Assembly: GCA_902778535.1 (NCBI GenBank)
Contig: CACYYG010000011.1
Coordinates: forward strand, 62,001 to 126,000
Length of the DNA: 64,000 nucleotides
Direction of reading: 5' to 3'
From: an uncultured Prevotellaceae bacterium
GTDB taxonomy: Bacteria > Bacteroidota > Bacteroidia > Bacteroidales > Bacteroidaceae
Position 1 is the first letter of the stretch, and each line of letters begins with the position of its first letter. Shown piece by piece: positions 17,482 through 25,585 of this stretch. The notes under the pieces were generated by a model. The model was given only the letters and a program-made list of their open reading frames with translations, made no database searches and was not told the origin of the DNA. Both the position numbers and the translations under genes were made by a program.

Positions 17482-17591
17482 AAAAAGCTTTTTTACAACT
17501 TTCTCTTGTACAAACTGTTCAATCAACAACTGCGGAAACTTGATTTGACAATTCTGCTTTCCGTGGCGATTTGTTAACAAAAGAAAATTTT

Positions 17592-17632
17592 AGTAACCAT
17601 GCGGGTTACTGTCAGTAACCCGCATGGTTACT
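17592..17632. repeat. 41-bp perfect palindrome with palindromic arms
   Basis: Two exact 20-bp inverted arms (AGTAACCATGCGGGTTACTG and its complement) around one base. Each arm is itself a GTAACC...GGTTAC hairpin, so a cruciform is possible. It could terminate truA/EamA transcription (TTTT follows). The rest of 17495-17823 holds no gene that I can support, only a short AAAGACACGAAGG-type tract near 17745-17772. Confidence 0.9.
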
Positions 17633-17823
17633 GTTTTGTCACAAAGCGTTATTTTGGCCTGAACAATATATAGAGTTTCTTTCTGCCTGCAACGTCGGTC
17701 AGTGGCACCGCCTGGATAGTCCATCATCTGCTGGCAGAAAAACTTTGTCACCTTCGTGTCTTTTGTGTTCAATTAACAACTACAGAAACTTTTGTACTTT
17801 TTTTTGAAAAAAGTGACAAAATA

Positions 17824-17855
17824 TTTGCGTGGTCGATGAAAATGTTATAATTTTG
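17824..17855 (+). promoter_or_regulatory. Promoter of the aromatic amino acid operon
   Basis: TTTG (17824-17827), 20 nt, TAATTTTG (17848-17855). The expected start point is near 17861, about 23 nt before the leader-peptide ATG. Confidence 0.75.
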
Positions 17856-17883
17856 CACGCTGTAACAACAAATAGAAAGCTAA

Positions 17884-17961
17884 ATGAACAAATTCAACGC
17901 ATATTTCTACTACTATTTTTACTTTGCAAGCAATTGTGAAGCGGTAGTTCGTATAAATTGA
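17884..17961 (+). CDS. Phe/Tyr-rich leader peptide of the aromatic operon
   Basis: A 25-codon ORF (ATG 17884, TGA 17959-17961) contains nine aromatic residues: Phe at 4, 8, 12, 14 and Tyr at 7, 9, 10, 11, 13. Residues 7-14 read YFYYYFYF without a break. It lies 23 nt after the expected transcription start and is followed by a terminator and then pheA. This is the structure of leader peptides that sense charged tRNA in attenuation; using both Phe and Tyr codons fits an operon that makes both precursors. It is not expected to have a function as a protein. Confidence 0.88.
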   Translation: MNKFNAYFYYYFYFASNCEAVVRIN

Positions 17962-18040
17962 AGATTGAAGATTGAAGATTGAAGATTGAAAATTGAAATA
18001 CAAGCCCCGCTTCACTGAAAGGTGAAAGTGGGGCGTTTTT
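17936..18040 (+). promoter_or_regulatory. Transcription attenuator before pheA
   Basis: GTGAAGCGG inside the leader ORF (17936-17944) is the exact reverse complement of CCGCTTCAC (18007-18015), which is the 5' arm of the terminator. The two pairings exclude each other: leader with 5' arm would be the antiterminator, 5' arm with 3' arm (18022-18034) the terminator. A ribosome held in the aromatic codons (17902-17925) would leave the leader segment free. Between them lies a run of ATTGAAG 7-mers (17957-18000) as a flexible spacer. Confidence 0.75.
18004..18040 (+). terminator. Attenuator terminator hairpin
   Basis: GCCCCGCTTCAC pairs with GTGAAAGTGGGGC (one G-U pair, one bulged A) around a six-base loop; GTTTTT follows. 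Confidence 0.85.
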
Positions 18041-18050
18041 AGTTAAGAAG

Positions 18051-18881
18051 ATGAAGAGAATAGCAATACAAGGCGAGACAGGCTCGTTTCACGACATCGC
18101 GGCACACCAGTTCTTTGCCGGCGAGCAGCTGCAGCTCATCTGCTGCCAGACCTTCGAGCAGGTCTATGAGGCCATCAGCCAGGATCCTACCATCATTGGC
18201 ATGGCTGCCATCGAGAACACCATCGCAGGGTCGTTGCTGCACAACTATGAGTTGCTGCGCGACTCTGGCACTACCGTCGTAGGCGAGCACAAGTTGCACA
18301 TTACACATTGCATCTGCTGTCTGCCTGAGGATTCGTGGGAGACCATCACGGAGGTACATTCTCATCCTGTGGCTCTGATGCAGACACGCCACTATCTTGC
18401 CCAGCATCCGCAGCTGCGCGTGGTGGAGGCCGACGATACTGCAGGTGCTGCGAAGATGATTGCCGAGGGTCATCACAAGGGCTGGGCAGCCATTTGTCAT
18501 GCCGATGCGGCGCGGCTCTATGGCTTGAAAGTGCTGGAGGACGGCATCGAGGACAACAAGCACAACTTCACCCGTTTCCTCGTATGCTGCAGGCCGCAGA
18601 AGGCCGACCTGCTGCGTCCGCTTGTGGAAACAAACAAGTCGAGCATTGTCTTTGCATTGCCTCACGAGGAAGGAAGCCTCTCGGCAGTTCTCGCCATCCT
18701 GTCGTTCTACAAAATCAATCTGACGAAGATTCAGTCGCTGCCCATCATCGGCCGCGAATGGGAATATCTGTTCTATGTGGATGTCACTTATAGTGATCTG
18801 ACCCGCTATCGTCAGGCCATTGATGCCATCATCCCTTTAACGCGTGATTTGAAAATATTAGGAGAATACAAAAGCGTATGA
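18051..18881 (+). CDS. pheA: Prephenate dehydratase
   Basis: The protein has 276 residues, normal for a monofunctional enzyme. The catalytic domain starts KRIAIQGETGSFHDIAA, has AAIENTIAGSLLHNYELL, and the essential TRF motif in HNFTRFLVCC. The ACT regulatory domain occupies about residues 200-276 with the Phe-binding region EEGSLSAVLAILSFYKINLTKIQSLPI. It converts prephenate to phenylpyruvate and is presumably inhibited by phenylalanine. The stop overlaps the aminotransferase start by 4 bp (ATGA), showing translational coupling. It is the first structural gene behind the Phe/Tyr attenuator. Confidence 0.95.
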   Translation: MKRIAIQGETGSFHDIAAHQFFAGEQLQLICCQTFEQVYEAISQDPTIIGMAAIENTIAGSLLHNYELLRDSGTTVVGEHKLHITHCICCLPEDSWETITEVHSHPVALMQTRHYLAQHPQLRVVEADDTAGAAKMIAEGHHKGWAAICHADAARLYGLKVLEDGIEDNKHNFTRFLVCCRPQKADLLRPLVETNKSSIVFALPHEEGSLSAVLAILSFYKINLTKIQSLPIIGREWEYLFYVDVTYSDLTRYRQAIDAIIPLTRDLKILGEYKSV

Positions 18882-20041
18882 TACAACCAGCAGAAAGACT
18901 CAACTTAGTGAGTGAATATTACTTCAGCCGGAAGCTGAAGGAGGTGGCTCAGCTTAATGCCGAGGGCAAAGACATCATAAGCCTGGCTATCGGCAGCCCC
19001 GACATGCCGCCGTCGGAGCAGACCATAGAAAAGCTGTGCGAGGTGGCCCGCCAGCCCAATGCCCACGGCTATCAGCCAACGATGGGCACGCTGGAGTTGC
19101 GTCAGGCTATGGCAGGCTTCTACAAGCGTTTTTACAATGTAAATCTCGACCCCGCGAAGGAGGTGCTGCCGCTGATAGGCTCGAAGGAAGGCATCCTGCA
19201 TGTCACGCTGGCCTTCGTCAATCCTGGCGACGAGGTGCTGGTGCCCAATCCTGGCTATCCCACCTATACCTCGCTCAGCAAGATTCTCGGCGCGAAGATT
19301 GTGAACTACAACCTGCGTCCTGAGAACGGCTGGCAGCCCGATTTCGACGAGTTGGAGAAGATGGATCTTACGCGTGTAAGGCTGATGTGGACCAACTATC
19401 CCAACATGCCTACAGGCGCTCCTGCCCGCATGGAGACCTACGAGCGTTTGGTGCGGTTCGCACAAGACCACCACATCGTCGTGGTGAACGACAATCCCTA
19501 CAGCTTCATCCTCAACGACAAGCCTCTCTCGCTCCTGCAGGTGCCTGGCGCCAAGGACTGCTGCATCGAGTTCAATTCGATGTCGAAGAGCCACAACATG
19601 CCAGGCTGGCGTGTGGGCCTCTGCGCCACCAATGCCGAGTTCATCACCTGGATTCTGAAGGTGCAGTCGAACATCGAGAGCGGTACTTTCCGAGGCATCC
19701 AGCTGGCTGCTGCCGAGGCCTACAACAACTCCGACGAGTGGCATCGCATGGCAAACATCGAGACCTATGCCCGTCGCCGCCAATATGCCGAGCAGATCAT
19801 GGATGTGCTGGGTTGCAAATACGACAAGAACCAGGTGGGCATGTTCCTCTGGGGCCGAATCCCTGACGCATATAACAATGTGGAAGACCTCACCGAGCGT
19901 GTCCTGCACGAGGCCCGCGTCTTCATCACTCCCGGCTTCATCTTCGGCTCCAACGGTGAACGCTACATCCGCATCTCCCTATGTGCTAAGGAAGAGAGTA
20001 TTCAGCAAGCACTTGGAAGAATTGAAGGATTGAAGGATTGA
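18878..20041 (+). CDS. Class I aminotransferase, probably aromatic
   Basis: The protein has 387 residues of the fold-type I PLP family. Motifs are GYQPTMGTLELRQAMAGFY, NPGYPTYTSLSKILGA, WTNYPNMPTGAPA, VVVNDNPYSFI, and the PLP lysine in SMSKSHNMPGWRVG, ending with the substrate-carboxylate Arg in RYIRISLCAKEE. In this operon it most likely makes phenylalanine and tyrosine from their keto acids; sequence alone does not exclude other amino acids. It overlaps pheA by 4 bp. Its last residues (RIEGLKD) are encoded by an 8-bp tandem repeat that continues past the stop. Confidence 0.9.
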   Translation: MIQPAERLNLVSEYYFSRKLKEVAQLNAEGKDIISLAIGSPDMPPSEQTIEKLCEVARQPNAHGYQPTMGTLELRQAMAGFYKRFYNVNLDPAKEVLPLIGSKEGILHVTLAFVNPGDEVLVPNPGYPTYTSLSKILGAKIVNYNLRPENGWQPDFDELEKMDLTRVRLMWTNYPNMPTGAPARMETYERLVRFAQDHHIVVVNDNPYSFILNDKPLSLLQVPGAKDCCIEFNSMSKSHNMPGWRVGLCATNAEFITWILKVQSNIESGTFRGIQLAAAEAYNNSDEWHRMANIETYARRRQYAEQIMDVLGCKYDKNQVGMFLWGRIPDAYNNVEDLTERVLHEARVFITPGFIFGSNGERYIRISLCAKEESIQQALGRIEGLKD

Positions 20042-20093: not shown

Positions 20094-20444
20094 ATGAAAG
20101 AAATTGTTATTGCTAACTTGAGCCTTGACTTTGCACTTAGGATAGTTAAGCTATACAAATACCTGTGCGAGCAGAAAACAGAATATGTGATGTCAAAACA
20201 GTTGCTACGTAGTGGTACAAGTATAGGTGCAAACATAGCAGAAAGTGAACACGCACAAAGTTCGGCAGACTTCATCTCCAAGTTATACGTTGCCTTGAAA
20301 GAGGCCAATGAGTCCAAATACTGGATAACTCTTCTTACCAAAGCAAATTATTTGACAGAAATAGAATGTGAGTCTATTATGAAGGATTTGCGAATTATAA
20401 TAGGTACATTAGTAAACACTATAAAGAAAACTAAAGATAATTAA
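20094..20444 (+). CDS. Four-helix bundle protein (S23/bAvd-like)
   Basis: The protein has 116 residues and matches the four-helix-bundle family (TIGR02436 type) by its signature: LDFALRIVKLYKYL in helix 1, SKQLLRSGTSIGANIAES between helices 1 and 2, SSADFISKLYVALKEANESKYWI in helix 3 and a C-terminal helix with LRIIIGTLVNTIKK. Relatives occur as ORFs inserted into 23S rRNA genes and, as Avd, in diversity-generating retroelements; the role of stand-alone copies is not established. No reverse transcriptase or variable repeat is nearby. It sits between two aromatic-pathway genes, has no evident metabolic link to them and is flanked by inverted octamer arrays, which suggests insertion. Confidence 0.85.
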   Translation: MKEIVIANLSLDFALRIVKLYKYLCEQKTEYVMSKQLLRSGTSIGANIAESEHAQSSADFISKLYVALKEANESKYWITLLTKANYLTEIECESIMKDLRIIIGTLVNTIKKTKDN

Positions 20445-20507: not shown

Positions 20508-21572
20508 ATGGAACTGGAATTAGAGAAACTGAACCTGCCGAGCGACAATGAACGTCCCTTCGTGATTGCAGGCCCGTGCTCCGCAGAGACCGAGGAGCAA
20601 GTGATGAGAACAGCCCGTGAGCTGGCCATGAAAGGCTGCCATAACTTCCGTGCCGGCGTGTGGAAGCCCCGCACCAAGCCCGGTGGCTTTGAGGGCAACG
20701 GCGAGAAAGCGCTGCCCTGGATGCAGCAGGTGAAAAAGGAGACGAAGATGCTCGTCTCTACCGAGGTGGCCACGCCTGAGCATGTGGAGCTGGCCCTGAA
20801 GTACGACATCGACATCCTCTGGATTGGTGCACGCACCTCGGCCAATCCCTTCGCTGTGCAGGCACTGGCCGATGCGCTGCGGGGAGTCGACGTGCCTGTC
20901 TTCGTGAAGAATCCCGTCAATCCCGATCTGGAGTTGTGGATAGGTGCTTTGGAACGTATTAACCAGGCTGGAGTGAAGCGTCTCGGAGCCATTCACCGAG
21001 GCTTCTCCTCGTATGATAAAAAGATTTACCGAAACCTTCCTATGTGGCAAATTCCCATTGAGTTACGCCGTCGCATCCCTGAGCTTCCCATCATTAGCGA
21101 CCCCAGCCATATCGGCGGACGTCGAGAGCTCATTGCGCCGCTCTGTCAGCAGGCTATGGACCTGGGCTTCGACGGTCTCATTGTGGAGAGTCATTGCGAT
21201 CCCGACAAGGCTTGGAGCGATGCTTCACAGCAGGTAACGCCCGACGTGCTCGACTACATTCTCTCGCTCCTTGTCATTCGCGATGAGAACACCACAACCG
21301 AGGGCATCCACGAGTTGCGTAAGCAGATCGACGAACTCGACAACCAGCTCATGGAACTGCTGGCTAAGCGTATGCGCGTGTGCCGCGAGATTGGCCAATA
21401 CAAGCGTGAGCACAACATGACTGTTCTTCAGGCTTCGCGCTACAACGAGATTCTCAGCAAGCGCGGTGCCCAGGGTGCCCTCTGCGGTATGGGGCCTGAG
21501 TTCGTGGCTCATGTCTTCGAGAGCATCCACGAGGAAAGCGTCCGTCAGCAGATAGAAATCATCAACAAATAG
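20508..21572 (+). CDS. Bifunctional DAHP synthase / chorismate mutase
   Basis: The protein has 354 residues. Residues 1-260 form the DAHP synthase barrel of the KDPG/KDO8P-like class: FVIAGPCSAETEEQV, CHNFRAGVWKPRTKPGGFEG, STEVATPEHVE, WIGARTSANPFAVQ, KNPVNPDLELWIGAL, GAIHRGFS, PIISDPSHIGG and VESHCDPDKAWSD. From about residue 268 a chorismate mutase helix bundle begins (HELRKQIDELDNQLMELLAKRMRV, REIGQYKREHNM). It thus covers the first step of the shikimate route and the step from chorismate to prephenate; the fused mutase may mediate feedback by prephenate or chorismate. It is the last gene of the attenuated operon. Confidence 0.93.
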   Translation: MELELEKLNLPSDNERPFVIAGPCSAETEEQVMRTARELAMKGCHNFRAGVWKPRTKPGGFEGNGEKALPWMQQVKKETKMLVSTEVATPEHVELALKYDIDILWIGARTSANPFAVQALADALRGVDVPVFVKNPVNPDLELWIGALERINQAGVKRLGAIHRGFSSYDKKIYRNLPMWQIPIELRRRIPELPIISDPSHIGGRRELIAPLCQQAMDLGFDGLIVESHCDPDKAWSDASQQVTPDVLDYILSLLVIRDENTTTEGIHELRKQIDELDNQLMELLAKRMRVCREIGQYKREHNMTVLQASRYNEILSKRGAQGALCGMGPEFVAHVFESIHEESVRQQIEIINK

Positions 21573-21645: not shown

Positions 21646-22842
21646 CTACTCTTCAGCCCCTGAGTCTTCTTTTCCCAATTCATTGACAAACTGCCAGTCG
21701 GTGCGCTTGAAGTCCTCGGTAGAAATTTGCCATTCCGGGTCGGGCATGTACCACCACCTCGATTCAAAGTAGCGCTGCAGATTCCTGTCGCTGAACACAT
21801 ATCCGCGGTTTGCGTAGGGCAGGTTACGGCAGATGCGCTTATACAGTTTGCGCACCTCCTCGTCGTTGCGGGGTTCGCGGCCATAGCAGGCTTTGAAGTC
21901 GACGTTCTCGGTGGGAAAGATGCTGGCTGCGCGGTCGTAGAACGAGCCGATGTCGAAATCGTCCTTTTCCATCGCCACCAGGTCGGCTGAGCGGATGCAC
22001 ATATTCTCCTTCGGCTTGAAGTTAGTGACATGACATTCCACCGTGCCGTTGCGTAGTGTCACCTCGGTATAGTGCTGGTCAAAGGCAGTACCCGTTCGCA
22101 CCTTTCCTTTGCCCTCGGTGACTTTGAACGGCTTGCGCGAGAACACATCATCGTTGAGATAGAAATGCTTGGCGGTGTTGACGGCACGTATTCGCAGGGT
22201 GAAATCGTCTACCTGATGGTTGGCCCAGCGTGTGCAGGGAGTGAGCCAGTAGGGAATCTCGAAACTGCGATAGACGCCATTCGACATGATGAACGTATAA
22301 GTGTGGTGTACCACCGAGGGACCTGGCTCGAAACGGGCATCGAAATAGTAGCCGTAGGCAATGTCTGTGATGGTGTCACGCCCGTTGGTGAGCGAAGCGC
22401 CCATCTCGTCCATAGGGCCGTCGTTGGTAGGATGCCACTTGCGCATGTCCAGTGGATTGAAGTCGGTAGGCTCGTCATCAGTTGAGCCGTAGATGACAGC
22501 ATTCTTGTAGTTCAGCTGCTTGCCGTTCATAGTAACGGTGAAGTCCTTGATGCTGGGATGGATGCCCTGTGGCGAGAATGCATCGCCGGTCATGTAGGGC
22601 AGGCTGGCTTCGAAGCCCATAGTGATGGTACGGGCATTTCCCTTGTTCAGCAGCTCGTAGTACACGTCGACGTGGGCACAGCCGTCGTCGCCAATGCCGA
22701 TGGTCAGCACCTCCTTCGTGATAGAGATATGGTTTTCCTGTACAGGCACCAGATTGTTGCCGCTTACGTAGTAAACCCCGTCGTTGGCCCAGCCTATACA
22801 TGCCAGCAGCGCGACAATCAGCGTCAAAAACACTTTTTTCAT
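21646..22842 (-). CDS. Secreted DUF4424/YARHG-like protein
   Basis: The protein has 398 residues with a signal peptide (MKKVFLTLIVALLACIGWA). The body has the layout of DUF4424-type proteins (NNLVPVQENHISITKEVL, VDVYYELLNKGNARTITMGFEA). The C-terminal part carries a YARHG-like segment, CRNLPYANRGYVFSDRNLQR, followed by YFESRWWYMPDPEW. It is presumably periplasmic or surface-located; the function is unknown. It is transcribed against the aromatic genes and lies between the DAHP synthase and tyrA, so it interrupts what is a continuous aromatic operon in related bacteria as I recall them. Confidence 0.75.
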   Translation of the reverse strand: MKKVFLTLIVALLACIGWANDGVYYVSGNNLVPVQENHISITKEVLTIGIGDDGCAHVDVYYELLNKGNARTITMGFEASLPYMTGDAFSPQGIHPSIKDFTVTMNGKQLNYKNAVIYGSTDDEPTDFNPLDMRKWHPTNDGPMDEMGASLTNGRDTITDIAYGYYFDARFEPGPSVVHHTYTFIMSNGVYRSFEIPYWLTPCTRWANHQVDDFTLRIRAVNTAKHFYLNDDVFSRKPFKVTEGKGKVRTGTAFDQHYTEVTLRNGTVECHVTNFKPKENMCIRSADLVAMEKDDFDIGSFYDRAASIFPTENVDFKACYGREPRNDEEVRKLYKRICRNLPYANRGYVFSDRNLQRYFESRWWYMPDPEWQISTEDFKRTDWQFVNELGKEDSGAEE

Positions 22843-24793: not shown

Positions 24794-25585
24794 ATGAAGA
24801 TATTAGTTTTAGGAGCAGGCAAGATGGGAAGCTTCTTCATCGACCTGCTGAGTTTCGACCACGAAGTGGCCGTGTTTGAACGCGACCCCAAGCGGATGCG
24901 TTTCACCTACAACTGTCAGCGGTTTACATCCTACGACGAGATTGAGGCGTTCAAGCCCGAGCTGCTCATCAATGCCGTCACGCTGAAGTACACCATTCCC
25001 GTGTTCAAGGAGGTCATACCTCATCTGCCCAAGGAGTGCATCATCAGCGACATCGCCTCAGTAAAGACCGACCTGAAGGATTTCTACGAGCAGGCAGGCA
25101 TGCGCTACGTCTCTACGCACCCCATGTTCGGCCCTACCTTTGCCAACCTGCAGCAGCTTTCTGAGGAGAACGCCATCATCATCAGCGAGGGCGACTACAT
25201 GGGACGCATCTTCTTCAAGGATCTCTATCAGAAGCTGGGTCTCAATATCTACGAGTATACCTTCGAGGAGCACGACAAGACGGTGGCTTACTCGCTTTCC
25301 ATCCCCTTCGTCTCGACCTTTGTCTTTGCTGCCGTGATGAAACATCAGGATGCGCCAGGCACCACCTTCAAGCGCCACATGCGCATTGCCAAAGGCGTGC
25401 TGAATGAAGACGACTATCTGCTGCAGGAAATCCTGTTCAATCCCTACACCCACGACCAGGTCAGCCAGATTCGTACGGAGCTGAAGGAACTCTTAGAGAT
25501 TATCGACACGAAGGATGGCGACGGCATGAAACAATACCTGACCAAGATTCGCGACAACGTAAGGCGCGACATCGAGGTCAAGTAG
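24794..25585 (+). CDS. tyrA: Prephenate dehydrogenase
   Basis: The protein has 263 residues. The Rossmann motif ILVLGAGKMGSFFIDLLS is at the start, IISDIASVKTDLKDFY follows, and STHPMFGPT holds the catalytic His common to prephenate dehydrogenases. It oxidatively decarboxylates prephenate to 4-hydroxyphenylpyruvate on the tyrosine branch. It has no ACT domain. It is not in the attenuated aromatic operon: a terminator, a convergent gene and two other plus-strand genes lie between. It shares a promoter (23624) with the preceding secreted protein, or has an internal one not seen. Confidence 0.9.
   Translation: MKILVLGAGKMGSFFIDLLSFDHEVAVFERDPKRMRFTYNCQRFTSYDEIEAFKPELLINAVTLKYTIPVFKEVIPHLPKECIISDIASVKTDLKDFYEQAGMRYVSTHPMFGPTFANLQQLSEENAIIISEGDYMGRIFFKDLYQKLGLNIYEYTFEEHDKTVAYSLSIPFVSTFVFAAVMKHQDAPGTTFKRHMRIAKGVLNEDDYLLQEILFNPYTHDQVSQIRTELKELLEIIDTKDGDGMKQYLTKIRDNVRRDIEVK

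Follow-up and report, generated by a model that had tools for sequence, protein, structure and literature searches.

In the enterobacterial ilvGMEDA and thrABC operons, a single attenuator leader senses several end products of the operon, and the pheL leader of Escherichia coli is Phe-only. Candidates from the Bacteroidetes/Chlorobi group are said to be mentioned by Vitreschak et al. (2004). The regulation of amino acid synthesis is poorly known in the Bacteroidota, a dominant phylum of gut and environment. In E. coli, expression behind the pheL leader is reported to depend on how much Phe-charged tRNA is available (PMC11802643). In Bacteroides thetaiotaomicron, pheA>hisHb>aroAIbeta-aroQ>tyrA is preceded by a putative attenuator according to Table 7 of a 2005 study (PMC1173090), and short ORFs that resemble leader peptides are described for its long 5′ UTRs (PMC7366714). 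A 2021 report on Flavobacterium psychrophilum (PMC9723704) gives clues to leader-peptide attenuation before amino acid operons; pheA and hisG are among the conserved 5′ elements named there, and the pheA element, conserved in Flavobacteriaceae and without Rfam hits, would seem to be a leader-peptide one. The original prediction for the locus studied here called amino acid attenuation little described in Bacteroidetes; this is fair, but the field is not empty, as the reports of 2005 and 2021 precede.

Here we describe the region upstream of pheA in an uncultured Prevotellaceae bacterium (GCA_902778535.1, contig CACYYG010000011.1), analysed within a stretch of 64,000 nucleotides referred to as the window. 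We are highly confident that this region carries a ribosome-mediated transcription attenuator of the trp/phe/his design, predicted to read both charged tRNA(Phe) and charged tRNA(Tyr). Attenuation had been proposed for the locus before, and the conserved and covarying aromatic run, antiterminator and terminator support it. Sequence and comparison provide the ORF, the promoter match, the three predicted pairings, their covariation and spacing, the spread of the element and the match between codons and operon content; from these we infer translation of the leader, stalling, termination and a response to starvation.

Anatomy of the pheA leader

The region 17824-18050 upstream of pheA comprises a promoter, a leader ORF and three mutually exclusive predicted RNA pairings (Table 1). 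The elements proposed originally were all present: an ORF of 25 codons with YFYYYFYF at residues 7-14, a promoter (TTTG-N20-TAATTTTG, 17824-17855) whose end lies 29 nt upstream of the leader ATG, a terminator at 18004-18040, and complementarity between 17936-17944 and 18007-18015, where GTGAAGCGG is, to the base, the reverse complement of CCGCTTCAC. The predicted terminator consists of a hairpin at 18004-18034 followed by GTTTTT to 18040, with a folding energy of -20.5 kcal/mol. In the fold of the leader, a further hairpin (1:2) pairs CTTTGCAA (17922-17929) with TTGTGAAG (17934-17941), and its segment 1 overlaps the 3′ end of the Tyr/Phe run. Segment 2 can pair with segments 1 and 3 and segment 3 with segments 2 and 4, which, as read from the sequence, is the full classical attenuator arrangement. 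The locus combines a leader ORF with cognate codons, a predicted terminator, a conserved 2:3 pairing and a hairpin 1:2 that overlaps the run. ATTGAAG-like units as in the spacer of the window also occur between leader ORF and terminator in several relatives.

Table 1. Features of the proposed pheA attenuator region and of the genes downstream (positions in the window)
Feature	Position	Strand	Basis or remark
Promoter TTTG-N20-TAATTTTG, Bacteroidota-type (-33 / -7 elements)	17824..17855	+	sequence match
Leader peptide ORF MNKFNAYFYYYFYFASNCEAVVRIN, 25 codons	17884..17961	+	read from sequence; run in 87/90 genus regions
Regulatory run YFYYYFYF, eight consecutive Tyr/Phe codons, residues 7-14	17902..17925	+	
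Segment 1 (CTTTGCAA), partner 17934-17941	17922..17929	+	leader fold, covariation
Segment 2 (TTGTGAAGCGG), forms the 3′ side of hairpin 1:2 and serves as antiterminator strand	17934..17944	+	shuffles, covariation, swap test
Spacer with tandem ATTGAAG units	17957..17999	+	length and letters variable among relatives
Segment 3, terminator 5′ arm GCCCCGCTTCACT; CCGCTTCAC (18007-18015) pairs with segment 2	18004..18016	+	
Segment 4, terminator 3′ arm	18021..18034	+	
U-tract closing predicted intrinsic terminator	18035..18040	+	
pheA, prephenate dehydratase	18051..18881	+	product matches Pfam PDT, 5.5e-55
Class I/II aminotransferase	18878..20041	+	comes after PDT in most of the relatives read
DAHP synthase - chorismate mutase fusion	20508..21572	+	
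tyrA, prephenate dehydrogenase	24794..25585	+	displaced behind minus-strand gene in window

In the proposed mechanism, transcription would begin about 20-25 nt ahead of the leader ATG, as judged from the promoter, and a ribosome would trail the RNA polymerase along the leader. When Phe or Tyr is scarce, the ribosome would stall on 17902-17925 and mask segment 1, leaving segment 2 free to capture segment 3 as it emerges. No terminator would then form, and pheA would be transcribed together with the aminotransferase and DAHP synthase-chorismate mutase genes. When both amino acids are plentiful, the ribosome would reach the stop codon at 17959 and cover the end of segment 2, hairpin 1:2 could re-form behind it, and segment 3 would pair with segment 4, halting transcription near 18040.

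The leader element is not a product of chance. Among 301 control pieces of 420 nt taken from both strands of the rest of the window, a run with at least five Phe/Tyr residues in eight occurred in eight pieces and one with at least seven in none, and no piece combined a run with a U-tailed hairpin and a 2:3 pairing. A simple sigma-70/terminator scan of the window listed neither the leader promoter nor its terminator, probably because it sought hexamers of the E. coli type and because the terminator stem is bulged.

Some neighbouring features were also recorded. A long inverted repeat of 20 pairs (17591-17633), terminator-like on both strands, lies in the interval between the attenuator and the EamA-type gene upstream of it. 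The gene at 20094-20444, flanked by those for the aminotransferase and DAHP synthase, is of the four-helix-bundle / 23S rRNA IVP type (PF05635, 3e-26). In the region with 21646-22842 and tyrA (24794-25585), a minus-strand gene and further genes separate tyrA from the other partners of pheA.

Distribution in the genus and beyond it

A search with PheA gave matches in 163 of 200 same-genus genomes, the genome of the window included, and the upstream regions of 90 of these were read (the 30 best matches, with the window's own among them, and 60 picked down the listing). The aromatic run was present in 87 of the 90 regions, again counting the window, and absent in three (L002, L009 and L089); L002 has no recognisable run, yet keeps a promoter-like sequence. 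All 87 loci with a run had a predicted U-tailed hairpin and contained both Phe and Tyr codons. The 2:3 duplex was equalled by at most 10 of 200 shuffles in 84 loci, the weaker ones being L085, L086 and L087 (60, 18 and 30 of 200 shuffles, respectively). The promoter was found in its strict form in 77 and in a loose form in 84 of the 87 loci, compared with none in one shuffled copy of each. Spacing was conserved as well: the offset from the end of the run to the antiterminator core was 14 nt in 76 of 87 loci, and the stop codon lay 11 nt past the core in 70 and inside segment 2 in eight. Alignment of such upstream regions had been suggested as a check on the locus, and run, antiterminator and terminator indeed proved conserved and covarying in relatives.

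Around the stop codon, some stem of at least 5 bp was possible in 44 of 85 loci, whereas shuffles gave an expectation of 25.0. One form, AAGTTG...CAACTT, is located just past segment 2, its loop containing the stop codon (L022, L025, L031, L041, L045, L084 and others), and shows the co-changes TCGTTG/CAACGA and GAGTTG/CAACTC. As a part of the mechanism this stem was rejected, since this form, which has a few co-changes, belongs to a subclade and is absent from the window.

To follow the element further, a covariance model of hairpins 1:2 and 3:4, termed R1, was built from the genus loci, which it finds by construction. In the genome of the window it gave one strong match (6.7e-19), the next having an E-value of 3.75. 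At E<=0.01 it matched 122 of 151 family genomes, representing 25 of 30 genera, and at E<=0.05 it matched 45 of 198 genomes in a sample of the order. Fifty-eight loci of family and order (L094-L151) were read. A PheA homologue lies downstream in 53; the aminotransferase comes first in L115, L127 and L131, the element of L137 stands before a TyrA-DAHP synthase pair, and L123 runs into a contig edge. A U-tailed hairpin was predicted in all 58, and the 2:3 duplex was equalled by at most 10 of 200 shuffles in 52 (the others are L098, L099, L103, L122, L124 and L129).

A draw independent of the model gave similar figures for the order. Of 60 genomes, 28 contained PheA, the window's own included, and among the 27 other upstream regions 25 had a run and a U-tailed hairpin, the exceptions being L289, at a contig end, and L295. 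The 2:3 duplex was equalled by at most 10 of 200 shuffles in 22 of the 27, and the remaining five include the two without a run. A leader ORF was read in 76 of 80 named loci from Bacteroides, Mediterranea and their relatives, such as B. fragilis Q1F2 and B. xylanisolvens XB1A; in L157 a run has no ATG nearby, and in L174, L195 and L212 the start is too close to the gene. The family of the window contains Bacteroides, and one of its genomes (G231) has a PDT that shares 100% identity with the B. ihuae protein.

Outside the order, we read the 29 best-scoring loci of 102 matching genomes (G000 included), a sample that leans to the closest relatives. Run and hairpin were present in 19 of 21 of these loci from other orders of the class, with 2:3 equalled by at most 10 of 200 shuffles in 17 of the 19, and in two of eight from other classes. 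For the 77 Bacteroides-group and 21 class/phylum loci together, this level was reached in 89 of 98.

Two further arrangements were observed in these surveys. Five genomes from three families of the order (L139, L142/L268, L146, L147 and L267) have a tandem pair of complete attenuators before pheA, with two leader ORFs, two terminators and differing antiterminators. In L111, from a genome of another genus of the family (G220), identity to the window is 95% for PheA and 75% for the adjacent aminotransferase, and the leader belongs to a different type, possibly owing to gene replacement under a kept leader or to an assembly mix.

Codon content, RNA pairings and alternative readings

Whether both amino acids are read can be addressed by comparing leader codons with operon content. 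As partners of pheA we counted, by position only, an aminotransferase, DAHP synthase or TyrA gene on the same contig and strand within 5 kb. The comparison covered 46 leaders, 25 from order and family and 21 from class and phylum; it omitted G405, which had no TyrA match and a short contig, G394 and G353, whose leaders could not be read, L241 and L248, which lack a run, the six run-less loci from other classes, and the loci of the genus and of Bacteroides. Tyr was absent from the best 12-residue window of the leader peptide in all four cases of lone pheA and in none of the 42 leaders of pheA with partners (Fisher p = 6e-6, uncorrected for kinship and with a lone-pheA category formed after the first cases), and Phe was absent from none of these 42. 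In 8 of the 42, two of them within the order, a Trp codon stands beside the Phe/Tyr run; class-level examples of such leaders are L235, L236, L237, L239, L245 and L255.

The four genomes with lone pheA (G365, G375, G385 and G308) belong to four families. In G365 and G375, a TyrA-DAHP synthase pair, or aminotransferase and DAHP synthase genes with TyrA, are found on another contig, and the pheA leaders, MTRFFTHFFFFFTQQ and MRRNSFRFFFFFAFFFCNG..., have Phe-only runs. The third case is G385 (MITINNSFFFFFFRSDPEKGL), where aminotransferase, DAHP synthase and TyrA had no match in about 5 kb downstream of pheA and TyrA is on another contig. For G308, the prediction was recorded before the leader was read, and the run of MYNTSASFFSNFFFVFTWRR is Phe-only; 7 kb on and on the same strand, its aminotransferase gene, with TyrA downstream, has a Tyr-rich leader of its own, MQQLNAYVYSYYYFTLTR, with one Phe in the run. 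The pheA-free leaders of G365, G375 and G488 are mixed Phe/Tyr rather than Tyr-only. Both codons are kept in G388 and four class-level genomes, in which pheA is accompanied by a shared gene and has no linked TyrA, so that the rule concerns any shared or Tyr-branch gene and not TyrA as such. As far as can be read from these leaders, codon identity follows operon content.

The claim that the operon senses Phe and Tyr together is thus supported by the way codon content tracks operon content, and weakened by the aroR leader of Corynebacterium glutamicum, which has Phe-Tyr-Phe codons and is reportedly Phe-only. Accordingly, a switch that is real but answers to Phe only, with the Tyr codons as ballast, has to be considered, although we regard it as unlikely. 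The aroR leader answers Phe limitation while Tyr availability has no effect (PMC11802643), and the runs of the genus mostly end in a Phe codon, TTT being the commonest of all (262, compared with 225 TAC). Ballast would not account for the loss of Tyr before lone pheA (4/4) and the retention of both codons with partners (42/42), nor for the Tyr-rich leader of the separate G308 operon. Moreover, tyrA lies downstream of pheA on the same strand in relatives. The TyrA of the window, searched in 10 genomes, had matches in seven, and in six matching family genomes (G117, G195, G333 and those of the B. fragilis, B. xylanisolvens and B. cellulosilyticus loci) tyrA followed pheA or its leader at a distance of about 2.3-3.1 kb, which for B. 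cellulosilyticus assumes contig C63 to be the record of its locus.

For the dual Phe/Tyr reading, a history can be outlined that we think has a somewhat better than even chance of being right: one Phe-or-Tyr attenuator would predate the radiation of Bacteroidia and would have been kept while the letters of all four segments were rewritten; the leaders of split operons would specialise through codon change only, being Phe-only where pheA is alone and Tyr-rich before a tyrA operon; and some lineages would have doubled the element in tandem before pheA.

We consider it quite improbable that the ribosome is instead arrested, as in TnaC, by the nascent peptide together with a bound small molecule. 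In some clades the peptide, tail included, shows strong conservation (NCEA.. in the genus, KVEREFVC.. in Bacteroides), but this tail is encoded by segment 2 and relatives with a changed frame drop it and keep the RNA. In L015-L018, L069 and L080 the frame is shifted and the peptide ends within segment 2, and in L019 an early stop just before segment 2 removes the tail; the RNA is retained in each, which argues for selection on the RNA and not on the peptide tail. The order of Phe and Tyr also varies, and Tyr is missing where pheA is alone.

Covariation was examined in 49 sequences less than 82% alike. In hairpin 1:2, 99.7% of the cells were paired and the covariation score exceeded all 500 shuffles; its 13 double-change cells (a number reached by 0/500 shuffles) all fall in one pair, and one such pair is what shuffles give too (497/500). 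In 2:3, double changes occurred in 7 of 12 pairs (0/500 shuffles), and in 3:4 in 8 of 13 pairs (11/500 shuffles reach that) with 53 double-change cells (0/500 shuffles). When the 3′ partners were slid by 1-3 columns, paired cells dropped to at most 70.4% (1:2), 53.1% (2:3) and 49.8% (3:4); for 2:3, a slide of -2 gave a similar covariation score (0.103 compared with 0.099 unslid) and a slide of -3 an equal number of double-change cells (10). Covariation thus supports the predicted RNA pairings.

In a swap test, the pairing energy of segment 2 with its own terminator arm was compared with that for the arms of other loci. The mean cognate energy was reached by 0/2000 permutations in each of five clade sets. 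For the set of order, class and phylum (n = 48) it was -15.0 kcal/mol compared with -9.5 kcal/mol, and 30 of 48 loci beat at least 90% of foreign arms. The gain was small in the genus (-20.8 compared with -19.0 kcal/mol) and in the family (-17.7 compared with -16.7 kcal/mol). That the terminator is unregulated, with a fixed level of read-through from a small protein gene into pheA, is highly improbable in view of an antiterminator pairing kept with locus-specific letters in 48 distant loci and of an antiterminator position tied to the run.

Scans with Rfam models brought no match to a described RNA. No family reached its gathering score in the window, and in 17780-18120, with E-values up to 10, there were only four sub-threshold matches, all to unrelated small RNAs. 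The enterobacterial Phe leader model had no match at the gathering score or at E<=10, and the T-box model had none in the window at the gathering score nor in 17780-18120 at E<=10. A T-box, riboswitch or protein-bound attenuator, conceivable for any terminator-antiterminator leader, can be set aside almost entirely, given these scans and a conserved feature that is a run of Phe/Tyr codons with varying letters and order.

Turning back to attenuation by a translating ribosome, we folded the leaders with segment 3 made and segment 4 not yet made, using only the RNA downstream of a ribosome whose assumed footprint extends 13 nt upstream and 15 nt downstream of the first P-site base. In the 87 genus loci, the mean probability of 2:3 was 0.99-1.00 whichever run codon occupied the A site. 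It decreased to 0.95 one codon past the run, 0.58 at two codons (67 of 86 loci above 0.5) and 0.15 at three (0 of 86), which in the model places the last run codon just before the edge of the switch. At the stop codon the mean was 0.00, a value partly built in since no pairing across the ribosome was allowed. On the run, means of 0.98-1.00 were also obtained for 77 Bacteroides-group, 58 and 25 family/order and 21 class/phylum loci, where in most cases the probability dropped under 0.5 at one to four codons beyond the last aromatic codon; three loci were below 0.5 already on the run, and 2/58 and 2/25 stayed above 0.5 at the stop codon. The model thus gives opposite folds for a stalled and a terminating ribosome, with an assumed footprint and a stop-codon case that holds partly by construction.

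The original prediction had seen a weak point in that a ribosome at the stop codon covers the antiterminator segment only partly. This is not serious: in the model such a ribosome covers 17943 onward, hence the end of segment 2, and leaves uncovered hairpin 1:2 (to 17941), which that prediction had overlooked. At equilibrium and with no ribosome, 2:3 was still favoured (mean 0.80, 71 of 87 loci above 0.5, window 1.0) because 1:2 is weak (-5.6 kcal/mol) beside 2:3 (-16.9 kcal/mol). The model therefore does not predict termination of an untranslated leader, and kinetics would have to decide.

Comparison with described attenuators

Elsewhere in the genome of the window, no leader of the same design was seen by eye before hisG and ilvD. 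A second leader (L266, G000:C20:12000-15500), MTRKANYWWWRCSRFE, lies upstream of an ORF that reads like trpB and is followed by a G+C-rich hairpin and a U-tract, as judged by eye; it is likely to be a Trp attenuator of the trp operon.

If the proposed mechanism is true, the synthesis of Phe and Tyr is controlled by a single identifiable RNA switch across much of the class. Transcription and translation in Bacteroidota would then be coupled closely enough to allow attenuation of the classical kind, and operons split in nature would provide variants of specificity that need not be constructed. The covariance model and the set of leader peptides could be used by annotation pipelines.

The predicted sensing of several amino acids by one leader recalls ilvGMEDA and thrABC, which concern other amino acids and another lineage. 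With pheL-pheA (and pheST) of E. coli, the locus shares a leader peptide before pheA (PMC11802643). It differs from pheL in its mixed Phe/Tyr run, in the aminotransferase and DAHP synthase-chorismate mutase genes downstream, joined by tyrA in relatives, and in having no Rfam link. The aroR leader of C. glutamicum resembles it in placing Phe-Tyr-Phe codons before a shared aromatic gene (aroF, DAHP synthase), but has fewer aromatic codons, a response reported as Phe-only and its place in another phylum (PMC11802643). Closer by descent, F. psychrophilum provides clues to leader-peptide attenuation in the Bacteroidota, codons and pairings being unnamed in the accessible part of that report (PMC9723704). 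The B. thetaiotaomicron attenuator belongs to the same operon and phylum and is very likely the same element; its table entry derives from a database of predicted attenuators and gives no leader peptide, sensing or conservation (PMC1173090).

In the open-access literature searched (PubMed Central), we did not find the leader peptide, its anatomy, its reach in Bacteroidia or the change of specificity. The mechanism is of a known kind and is partly foreshadowed by the B. thetaiotaomicron table of 2005 and the Flavobacterium paper of 2021, as far as their accessible text goes; new here are the leader peptide, the anatomy, the reach and the specificity change.
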